A DNA stretch of 64,000 nucleotides, taken from Rhodothermaceae bacterium (GTDB lineage: Bacteria; Bacteroidota; Rhodothermia; Rhodothermales; Bin80). The first letter of the stretch is position 1. Every line of letters starts with the position of its first letter. The position numbers were made by a program, and so were the translations under genes. The notes under the pieces are model-generated. The model was not told where the DNA came from. It was given only the letters and a program-made list of their open reading frames with translations, and did no database searches. Shown one piece after another: positions 50,421-53,909 of this stretch. The stretch is from NCBI GenBank assembly GCA_009838195.1, contig VXSC01000037.1, positions 1-64,000 on the forward strand, written 5' to 3'.

Positions 50421-51389
50421 ATGGCCAAGCGAAGCACTTCATTCTGGCTGGGTATCGTTATCTGTTTGTTCACAACCTCGAACGTACGGAGCCAAACGCT
50501 ATCTGGTTTCGATTTTTTGCGGCTTGAACCTTCTGCAGAAGCGGCCGCACTCGGTGGGACGCTCCCGGATGCCACCTCCAGCCAAAGTAGTGCCATCCTT
50601 TATAATCCGGCATTGCTGAATCGTAAGGCGGGGGGCAGTCTCTCGGTATCATGGCTGAACCACCTGAGTGATCTCCAGTCCGGCACGGTTACGTATGCCC
50701 ATGACCTTGGCGGGCTCGGTATGGCTGGTGTGGGAGTACGGTTCTTTCACTGGGGAAAAATAGATCAGGCCGATGCGAATGGCGAGCGCATTGGTACGCT
50801 TGCTTCTAGTAATGTTGCACTGTCTGCAGGATTATCTCGTCCATGGCACTCCCGATTCCGATACGGAGCGAGCCTCCATCTAGCCTATACCTCCATTGGT
50901 GAATTCAATGCCGTCGCAGTCGCCATGGATGTAGGGCTGGTCTACCATGTTCCTGATCAGGGCCTCACCGCCTCCATCGGGGGCACGAACGTCGGTAGAT
51001 CTCTTTCCAGTCTTGGCCAATCAAGGGATGCCATGCCCCTGGACTTGCGGATGGCTGTATCCAAGCGACTCAGGTATATCCCGGTACTCGTCGGTCTCAC
51101 GGTCTATAATCTGCAGCATATCCATGAGATTACGACGGTGAATGAGGGATTCCGGCATGCGATTTTCAGTCTGGAATTCCAGGCAATCCCTGCCTTTGAT
51201 CTCCGACTGGGCTATAACCACCGTAAACGAAACCTCAAGTCTGATCGGCGGCTGGATATGGCCGGAACGACCGTTGGATTTGGCTTGCACATCCGACGCT
51301 TTGAGCTTGATTATTCGTTCAGTTCCTGGTCATTTGCCGGGCTGCACCAGTTCACAGTGACAACCAGGTTCAGTAAGAGGGATCAATGA
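50421..51389 (+). CDS. porQ: Type IX secretion system protein PorQ-like
   Basis: A protein of 322 residues. A signal peptide (FWLGIVICLFTTSNVRSQ) is followed by LRLEPSAEAAALGG, the conserved first strand of PorV/PorQ outer-membrane barrels, and AILYNPALL, then about 12 amphipathic strands to the C-terminus (HQFTVTTRF). The length and the strand pattern fit PorQ rather than PorV (usually longer). PorQ, with PorZ and others, works in attaching T9SS cargo to the surface; three cargo proteins (one broken) are encoded in this window. It is divergent from secA by 164 bp and overlaps the following minus-strand gene by 20 bp. Confidence 0.82.
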   Translation: MAKRSTSFWLGIVICLFTTSNVRSQTLSGFDFLRLEPSAEAAALGGTLPDATSSQSSAILYNPALLNRKAGGSLSVSWLNHLSDLQSGTVTYAHDLGGLGMAGVGVRFFHWGKIDQADANGERIGTLASSNVALSAGLSRPWHSRFRYGASLHLAYTSIGEFNAVAVAMDVGLVYHVPDQGLTASIGGTNVGRSLSSLGQSRDAMPLDLRMAVSKRLRYIPVLVGLTVYNLQHIHEITTVNEGFRHAIFSLEFQAIPAFDLRLGYNHRKRNLKSDRRLDMAGTTVGFGLHIRRFELDYSFSSWSFAGLHQFTVTTRFSKRDQ

Positions 51390-52278
51390 GGCCCCTTGTT
51401 TTGAGATTGTTCACCCGATGGTAGAAGCGGTGTGGACCTATCTGTTCTTTGAGCTCCTCTTTGGAGATCCCTTGCTGAATCATTAAATAAATGGCCGTGT
51501 GCGACAGGCTCTGCGGGGACACCTCAATGCGCGTAATCATGGCAAGATCAAGCAGCCCGCGCATACGGGACCGGACAGTACGTACCTTTAACCGTTCATA
51601 CTTCTCACGGGTGCCGAGTGATTGAAAGAGCGGATCCTTTGGCCCTATCGGTTGTCGCCGCGTTGCAAGATAAGCCCTTAGGCTTTGATAGGTTTGCTGA
51701 TCCAGGGGCACAATACGCCGATTCTCCCCACGAATATTCAACTCTTCCCCCATCAGGGTATTCTCCAGGTCCTCGTAATTACATTTCGTAATTTCCGTTT
51801 CCGACAGGCCCTTACGTAGCATACAGCACAGGATGGCTTGATCACGCAGCCGAATAGGGGCCCTGCCTTCGGAAACCTTAAATAAGCGCTTGATCTCATC
51901 CTCTGTCAGGATCCCACGGCCCAAGGGACGAGGCTGGGGCTTGACCCTGATATTTTTGGCCGGATCTTCCTGTAGCAGCCCCTCATTCACGAGGAACACG
52001 AAAAATTGCCGTACTGCGGTCAGGTAAGTCTGGATCGTAGCATGGCTCACATGGCGTTCCGTTTTGAGATAGATCGGAAACTTCTCCAGATTTTCCTGGG
52101 ACAATTCCACATTCCCTCCTTGCTCCAATATCCACAACTTGAAAATCTCAAGCGACTTCCCGTATGTCTTTACGGTGGCTTGAGATTTACCCTGCGCCAG
52201 CGTGCTCAAAAAAAAATCCACACGCGCAAGGATCGCATCGGTTGTCAAGGTCTTGACTAGATCGCGATCTTTTAGCAT
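51370..52278 (-). CDS. Tyrosine-recombinase-like (XerC/D family) protein lacking catalytic residues
   Basis: 302 residues with the full Xer architecture: a SAM-like N-terminal DNA-binding domain (about 10-100: QATVKTYGKSLEIFKLWI) and a catalytic-fold domain (about 120-300). Aligned without gaps to the family, the first catalytic arginine (GLR) is serine (GLSETEI), the beta-hairpin lysine is gone (RGENRRIVPL), the HxLR box is QSLS in SPQSLSHTA, LGH is IGP, and no tyrosine sits at the nucleophile position. The gene is otherwise intact and well folded in appearance. It probably binds DNA or a partner without recombining. It shares a strand, 32 bp apart, with the E2 gene, and its 3' end overlaps porQ. 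Confidence 0.8.
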   Translation of the reverse strand: MLKDRDLVKTLTTDAILARVDFFLSTLAQGKSQATVKTYGKSLEIFKLWILEQGGNVELSQENLEKFPIYLKTERHVSHATIQTYLTAVRQFFVFLVNEGLLQEDPAKNIRVKPQPRPLGRGILTEDEIKRLFKVSEGRAPIRLRDQAILCCMLRKGLSETEITKCNYEDLENTLMGEELNIRGENRRIVPLDQQTYQSLRAYLATRRQPIGPKDPLFQSLGTREKYERLKVRTVRSRMRGLLDLAMITRIEVSPQSLSHTAIYLMIQQGISKEELKEQIGPHRFYHRVNNLKTRGLIDPSY

Positions 52279-52310: not shown

Positions 52311-53909
52311 TCAAAGCTCCATGTCTGGATCTAGGTTTTCAATCACTTCTGAGCATCGACGAAGGAAAGCAATCCCCATCGCCCCGTCAATGATCCGATG
52401 ATCATACGACAGGGACAAGACCATCATATGTCTGATCGCAATCGTATCACCATGGTCTGGATGTTCAATAACCACCGGACGTTTGATGATAGTTCCAGTT
52501 GCCAATATAGCAACTTGAGGCTGTAGTATGATTGGAGTTCCCATCAGAGACCCGAGTGACCCTACGTTGGTCAAGGTAAAGGTCCCTCCTTGCAGATCAT
52601 CTGGAAGCAGCTCCGACGCTCGTGCACGATGGGCTAAGTCATTGGCTGCATGGGCAAGTCCGGTGATGCTTAATCGCCCGGCATTGCGGATCACCGGCAC
52701 AATCAACCCCGACTGTTCCAGTGCGACGGCAACCCCGATATGATGGTCTTTGCGTACGATAATCTTGTCTCCTTCGACAGAGCTGTTGAGCAGTGGAAAG
52801 TCACGCAGTGCTTCTACTGCAGCATAAATCAGGAAGGGGGCGTACGTCAGCTTCACGCCATCGCGTGCATAAAAGGCCTCCTTATTGGCTTCCCGAATTC
52901 GAACCAGCCGTGTTGCGTCCACCTCTGCAAACGAGGTCACATGCGCAGCAATGCGTCGCGACTTCGTCATATGCTCGGCAATCAACTGACGCATCCGATC
53001 CATCTGGATGACCTCCACCCGATCCCCTTTCCGGCCAGAATCCCAGGGAGCCGGCGTTTTTCTGGCGGGTGACACGGCCTTCTTCTTCGGTTTGGGAGAA
53101 GGTGCGCCTTTTCGGGATTCCAAGTGATCTACAAGGTCCTTTTTTGTAATCCGCCCAGAACGCCCGGAGCCTTTGATGCCAGCTAGTTCCTCTCGGGAAA
53201 TATTCTCGGTCTCTGCAATACTGCGAACCAGTGGGCTTAGAAAACGCCCATCCTCCAAATGCCGTGCTCCCTCCGGTTCGGATGGCTCGGGTAATTTAGG
53301 TTCTGGCGCAGGCTCAGGTTCTGATACGCTCTCAGAGGGAGATGCTACTACTGGAGTATTTGCACTACCCTCCGCGCCAATAATGGCAATCGTGGTTCCA
53401 ACATCCACCGTCTCTCCTTCGGGCACCAGAATTTTCCGCACAATCCCTGCAGCAGGGGCAGGCACATCGGTATCCACTTTGTCGGTCCCGATCTCTAGGA
53501 GCGTCTCATCCAATTCAACAGAATCTCCTTCTTTCTTATGCCAAGCAATGACTGTCCCCTCAGTGATGCTCTCGCCCATTTTCGGCATTACGACGGGGGT
53601 GTCCTCAACCGTAGATGCGGCTGGTGGTGGCGGGCTGGAATCCGAGGATGTCGGCTCCGGGGTCGTTTCTTCGGTATGAATCACAGCAATCACATGCCCG
53701 ACGGGAACGGTCTCCCCCTCCGGGGTAAGGATTTTCCCGACGACTCCGGCCGTCGGCGCAGGTACATCCGTATCTACTTTGTCGGTCCCAATTTCCAGGA
53801 GCGTCTCATCCAGTTCAACAGGGTCTCCCTCTTTCTTATGCCAAACAATGACGGTTCCTTCGGTAATACTCTCGCCCATTTTGGGCATTGGGACTTCAAC
53901 CTTTGCCAT
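52311..53909 (-). CDS. 2-oxo acid dehydrogenase E2 component with two lipoyl domains
   Basis: A protein of 532 residues. Two tandem lipoyl domains (about 1-80 and 105-185) each carry the lipoylated lysine in [14 protein letters not shown] and are very similar in DNA as well. A peripheral-subunit-binding domain follows ([28 protein letters not shown]), flanked by Pro/Glu/Lys-rich linkers, and then the catalytic acyltransferase domain with the active-site motif [24 protein letters not shown] favours 2-oxoglutarate or branched-chain complexes over pyruvate dehydrogenase, but the substrate is not certain. No E1 or E3 gene is adjacent. Confidence 0.92.

Follow-up and report, generated by a model that had tools for sequence, protein, structure and literature searches.

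The window analyzed here, a 64,000-nucleotide stretch of contig VXSC01000037.1 (Rhodothermaceae bacterium, assembly GCA_009838195.1), carries a tyrosine recombinase-like gene, hereafter pseudo-Xer, between porQ and an E2 gene (Table 1). The porQ neighbor named in the preliminary description is real, scoring over the cut-off of NF033711. E2 and pseudo-Xer are probably co-transcribed. A promoter and terminator scan gave results at chance level.

Table 1. Features of the pseudo-Xer locus, with positions in the window
Feature	Position	Strand	Remarks
porQ	50421..51389	(+)	Convergent with the pseudo-Xer ORF, tail to tail, 20-bp overlap; NF033711, 222.8 bits against a cut-off of 220
pseudo-Xer gene	51370..52278	(-)	Intact open frame, 302 aa; six catalytic positions all substituted
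Degenerate catalytic domain, ~residues 122-300	51379..51915	(-)	Pfam Phage_integrase (residues 124-281) and AlphaFold
Asn291, nucleophilic Tyr position (Y279->N291)	51406..51408	(-)	Alignment to E. coli XerD
Pro282, His III position (H270->P282)	51433..51435	(-)	Pro in 9/9 genus members
Ser259, Arg II position (R247->S259)	51502..51504	(-)	Thr in Rhodothermales beyond the window's family
Gln256, His II position (H244->Q256)	51511..51513	(-)	Gln in 9/9 genus members
Glu185, beta-hairpin Lys position (K172->E185)	51724..51726	(-)	Loop alignment less certain
Ser159, Arg I position (R148->S159; GLRxSE -> GLSETE)	51802..51804	(-)	S/T/A/G nearly family-wide
N-terminal core-binding domain (SAM-like, helical), ~residues 13-112	51943..52242	(-)	Pfam SAM_1 (residues 23-100) and AlphaFold
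Dihydrolipoamide acyltransferase (E2) gene	52311..53909	(-)	Ends 32 bp upstream of pseudo-Xer, same strand; identified from sequence

Fold and catalytic positions of the window protein

The window protein belongs to the tyrosine recombinase fold superfamily. Two Pfam domains scored over their cut-offs (Phage_integrase [PF00589], 46.3 bits versus 27.1; SAM_1 [PF02899], 33.7 bits versus 22.3), and the best Foldseek matches of the predicted models were XerA, Cre, and XerD, with XerH matched too. Together with the intact frame, the Pfam scores bear out the earlier claim that both domains and a full length of 302 residues have been kept. With an alignment of 38 family members, AlphaFold modeled the window protein at a pLDDT of 90 and a pTM of 0.67, and the Roseithermus ortholog at 85 and 0.70. 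A comparison of the predicted structure with XerD had been proposed, and the model has a complete Xer fold, with helices at residues 13 to 27, 33 to 52, 61 to 73, and 79 to 98 of the core-binding domain. TM-scores to PDB entries were ~0.5 over both domains with a large rmsd, which in these models probably reflects a different inter-domain angle. The XerA proteins of archaea (PDB 5hxy and 4a8e) were the best matches, over approximately the full length; XerA is catalytic, however, and the window protein scored 87 bits against the NF040815 cut-off of 220. Among the structures, PDB 9i5v chain 14 (401 aa), labeled a RaiA-type ribosome factor, has an Xer match over residues 21 to 270, which suggests either a natural fusion of an Xer with a ribosome hibernation factor or a naming error. 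The window protein has a pI of 9.6 and a net charge of +12, and the positive charge sits in the catalytic domain (+11, versus +1 in the core-binding domain).

Catalytic positions were read by alignment to E. coli XerD (R148, K172, H244, R247, H270, and Y279). This alignment agrees with the motif changes listed in the preliminary description (GLR to GLS, HxLR to QSLS, LGH to IGP, the hairpin lysine replaced in GENRR, and no nucleophilic tyrosine), and the R-K-H-R-H set and nucleophilic tyrosine of an active tyrosine recombinase are absent. Nor does the alignment show any other conserved residue of the window protein standing in for those lost. The window protein also lacks RxR, a family-specific motif before His III that is common but not universal (Q279 and G281 stand in its place); the other eight genus members keep it. 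Tyr286 was considered as a displaced conserved nucleophile and rejected, because it is aligned with Tyr or Phe in relatives. The sequence strongly supports a lack of strand cleavage by the window protein and its genus; for the window protein this is because the active site is wholly gone.

Distribution and descent of the family

Orthologs were recovered (E < 1e-38) from 56 of the 59 genomes searched, a set that spans the genus, the family, and the order and includes the window's own genome, and the frame is open in every genus member with the gene. Named relatives include Roseithermus, Rhodothermus, Salinibacter, Salinivenus, and Longimonas. The preliminary description had proposed a search for orthologs elsewhere; they occur throughout Rhodothermales in the same neighborhood, with the order E2-xer-porQ-secA kept where sequence reaches, some neighbors being occasionally absent. 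Two genomes without pseudo-Xer (G009 and G030) lack the porQ ortholog as well, so that the locus there is probably unassembled rather than the gene lost. In G037, porQ-secA is present and no pseudo-Xer was found within 1.5 kb beside porQ, which is perhaps a true loss. One genome has a second, 95-aa partial copy running off a contig end (L040, G005 C49:2-286), probably through assembly redundancy.

Relatives in Thermochlorobacter, other Chlorobia, and Ignavibacteriae have 44 to 48% identity to the Roseithermus protein, and in a 296-genome sample of the phylum an E-value gap divides orthologs from ordinary Xers. One outside genome (family f40; G303:C5:84386-85254) has its ortholog in two frames, owing to a frameshift or a sequencing error. 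Beyond Rhodothermales, a leucyl-tRNA synthetase-like gene lies downstream in Ignavibacteria-like loci, and various genes adjoin pseudo-Xer in Chlorobia. A functional tie to porQ or E2 was considered and rejected, the neighborhood being constant within Rhodothermales and different outside it. Because of this change, the adjacency is probably incidental, and porQ and E2 look like neighbors rather than partners.

An IQ-TREE analysis of 73 proteins placed the pseudo-Xer family in a single clade (100/100), apart from XerC (100/99) and XerD (99/90), with sub-clades for Ignavibacteria, Chlorobia, and Rhodothermales and with the window's genus on a long branch (1.24). Pseudo-Xer shares with XerC and XerD a two-domain architecture, fold, length, and status as a vertically inherited chromosomal gene. 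In contrast to them, it forms its own clade, has lost the catalytic residues, and coexists with XerD and XerC-like proteins outside Rhodothermales; the window protein scored 106 bits against XerC (TIGR02224; cut-off, 335) and 103 bits against XerD (TIGR02225; cut-off, 330) and is thus an equivalog of neither. The marks of the pseudo-Xer family (replaced Arg I, E2-xer-porQ-secA order, and monophyly) are all found in the window protein. From these sequence comparisons, the family looks like a third paralog of vertical descent.

Twenty genomes outside Rhodothermales with pseudo-Xer also have an XerD over the cut-off and an XerC-like match (fragments only in one). Neither XerC nor XerD was found over NCBIfam cut-offs in the eight Rhodothermales searched (G031, G028, G022, G026, G017, G039, G053, and G011). 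In those Rhodothermales, XerC and XerD may be replaced by Xers particular to each lineage, of the L001 type in the window's family and the L212 type in Rhodothermus. The window's genome has a third tyrosine recombinase on a 6.2-kb contig (L003, G000:C24:2960-3466), possibly part of a mobile element. An obligate partnership with XerC and XerD was rejected, as the tested Rhodothermales without both over the cut-off still keep pseudo-Xer.

Xer systems are tetramers in which one subunit pair is active at a time, and this established arrangement could accommodate pseudo-Xer as a silent partner of an active Xer. Such a partner would hold one dif-like arm and position or regulate the active subunit, and the single strand exchange would be finished by replication or repair. 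The intact predicted fold is consistent with this role, as is the presence of at least one conventional tyrosine recombinase in nearly all genomes checked. However, pseudo-Xer persists with XerC and XerD in Chlorobia and Ignavibacteria and with unrelated lineage-specific Xers in Rhodothermales, lineages f17 and f18 have XerC and XerD without pseudo-Xer, and one genome with pseudo-Xer (G016, a 93% complete draft) has no other Phage_integrase match. We regard a silent partner as rather unlikely.

Stepwise loss of the active site

At the Arg I position, all 63 named Rhodothermales beyond the window's family have Ser, Ala, or Gly; of the 18 matched genomes outside Rhodothermales, 17 have Ser, Thr, or Ala there. 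Arg II is Thr in all 62 readable Rhodothermales beyond the window's family and Arg in most outside genomes. The matched outside genomes keep Tyr (18/18) and Lys (17/18), and both residues are kept nearly everywhere except in the window's family. By parsimony, the fewest changes on the tree are 2 for Arg I and 7 for Tyr, the latter residue being Ser in Rubrivirga-like members. A small nested group of Chlorobia has Arg at Arg I, which parsimony reads as a regain. One protein of this group, from Chloroherpetonaceae (L146, 8001-8873), has all six catalytic residues, apparently through that regain; its close relatives (L181) have Arg I, together with Gln at Arg II.

Near-total loss is limited to the genus of the window protein and the greater part of its family. 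Within the genus, the Lys position varies and is often still Lys, and Tyr is nearly always lost. Losses across the window's family are heterogeneous, with the sister genera of the window's genus differing in detail, and a family member that groups elsewhere in the tree (G013) still has Lys and both His residues. The preliminary description had asked whether its substitutions are conserved. Replacement of Arg I by Ser or Thr proved general to the pseudo-Xer family and Q256 and P282 general to the genus, but the residues at the positions of Lys, Arg II, and Tyr are not constant. The loss was stepwise: Arg I went at the base of the family (to Ser, Thr, or Ala) and Arg II (to Thr) in Rhodothermales, followed by both His residues and, in nearly all cases, Tyr in the window's genus. 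The wider family is likely non-cleaving as well, although this is less sure than for the window protein because Lys and Tyr are retained.

The same retention of Tyr and Lys in the matched outside genomes would fit a protein that, beyond the window's family, remains an active recombinase whose catalytic arginines have moved (RxR for LxG before His III), with only the window's family inactive. Arg at the positions of XerD residues 267 and 269, where the canonical motif is LxG, is frequent to invariant among pseudo-Xer proteins; neither XerC nor XerD has it. A precedent is described in a 2021 classification of prokaryotic tyrosine recombinases: in part of the IntCTnDOT group a catalytic arginine is absent from its usual place, and these recombinases are reported to be active via an alternative arginine (PMC8138268). 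Unlike pseudo-Xer, the IntCTnDOT group consists of active mobile-element integrases. The family-specific RxR may be a counterpart of their compensating arginine, and it is gone from the window protein. Against relocation, several Rhodothermales members keep RxR even though Tyr has become Ser, and most of the window's family keeps it after the loss of Tyr and His, which argues that RxR there serves a non-catalytic purpose. Arg II is lost too in Rhodothermales, and outside Rhodothermales the catalytic domain is less conserved than the core-binding domain. Relocated catalysis is, in our judgment, very unlikely.

Selection, domain conservation, and proposed function

In non-saturated pairs within the genus, dN/dS (Nei-Gojobori) was 0.13 to 0.20 for pseudo-Xer, compared to 0.11 to 0.25 for porQ, 0.04 to 0.09 for the genome's active-type Xer, and 0.03 to 0.06 for SecA in the same pairs. 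Pseudo-Xer is under purifying selection, looser than on an enzyme that shares its fold and comparable to that on porQ; the value near 1 that the preliminary description had suggested checking for was not observed. The long branch of the window's genus and a dN/dS some 2 to 4 times as high as in the active-type Xer might suggest a recombinase in decay whose frame is not yet interrupted by stops. Decay is nevertheless rejected by the dN/dS range, which covers all non-saturated pairs, and by synteny conserved across the order. The frame is open in every genus member carrying the gene, and 9/9 of them have a GLID tail at the C terminus, with Tyr or Phe at its end. We consider decay scarcely credible; dN/dS and synteny agree with the earlier view that a coherent protein has survived.

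Conservation of the two domains was compared in 18 genomes with all three proteins. The core-binding domain was more conserved than the catalytic domain in pseudo-Xer (46.7% versus 38.2%), with the reverse in XerD (36.3% versus 57.5%) and XerC (35.8% versus 46.8%). Of 153 genome pairs, the core-binding domain had the higher conservation in 136 for pseudo-Xer, 0 for XerD, and 5 for XerC; because the pairs are not independent, these counts are descriptive and do not test significance. Since the domains are approximately equal within Rhodothermales (65.7% core-binding versus 64.8% catalytic) and within the genus (58% versus 59%), the argument from domain reversal rests on lineages outside Rhodothermales. 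Near-invariant family-specific residues of the core-binding domain are G37, T38, R41, Y67, Y85, and T87.

The explanation that we favor, and consider probable, is that pseudo-Xer is an ancient third Xer paralog beside XerC and XerD that has lost its cleavage chemistry and been kept for DNA binding. DNA binding is predicted from the conservation of the domains and the fold, in support of the repurposed DNA-binding or structural protein envisaged in the preliminary description. In the manner of Xer proteins, pseudo-Xer would grip a specific, conserved DNA sequence, leaving it uncut, and its role on the chromosome would be DNA binding, architecture, or regulation. Against this explanation, the near-invariance of Lys and Tyr beyond the window's family is odd for a chemistry-free protein, the domain reversal shows clearly in the outside lineages but not within Rhodothermales, the positive charge of the window protein lies in its catalytic domain, and the TM-scores are only ~0.5. 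More tentatively, it is possible that the family is a pseudo-recombinase family as deep as the phylum, having dropped catalysis before the split of Chlorobia, Ignavibacteria, and Rhodothermales. Pseudo-Xer would then be a conserved chromosomal factor recognizing the same DNA element across lineages, comparable to yeast Ndc10.

Recombinase domains that have lost their catalytic residues are known from Crypton-derived proteins (DUF3504 proteins, Cbf2/Ndc10, and Gcr1), several of which are transcription regulators and one of which binds centromeres (PMC3212892). Domesticated Cryptons are eukaryotic and transposon-derived and usually have extra domains, whereas pseudo-Xer is bacterial, stand-alone, and Xer-like. 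The plant ALOG domain reuses a recombinase-type N-terminal DNA-binding domain in a regulator (PMC3537659); unlike the two-domain pseudo-Xer, it has the N-terminal domain only. No group like pseudo-Xer was seen under the relevant terms in the 2021 classification (PMC8138268), and no named subgroup of dead Xers was found in the open-access literature, a search that leaves out most subscription journals.

Tyrosine recombinases are by default annotated as enzymes, and naming this Rhodothermales gene XerC or XerD would be wrong. If our explanation is true, pseudo-Xer would show clearly that, in bacteria, a chromosomal Xer-type protein can turn into a conserved non-enzyme, with intermediate losses of the active site visible in living lineages. 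The explanation would also predict that the chromosomes of Rhodothermales, Chlorobia, and Ignavibacteria, some of which are culturable, carry an unrecognized DNA element and encode the factor that binds it.
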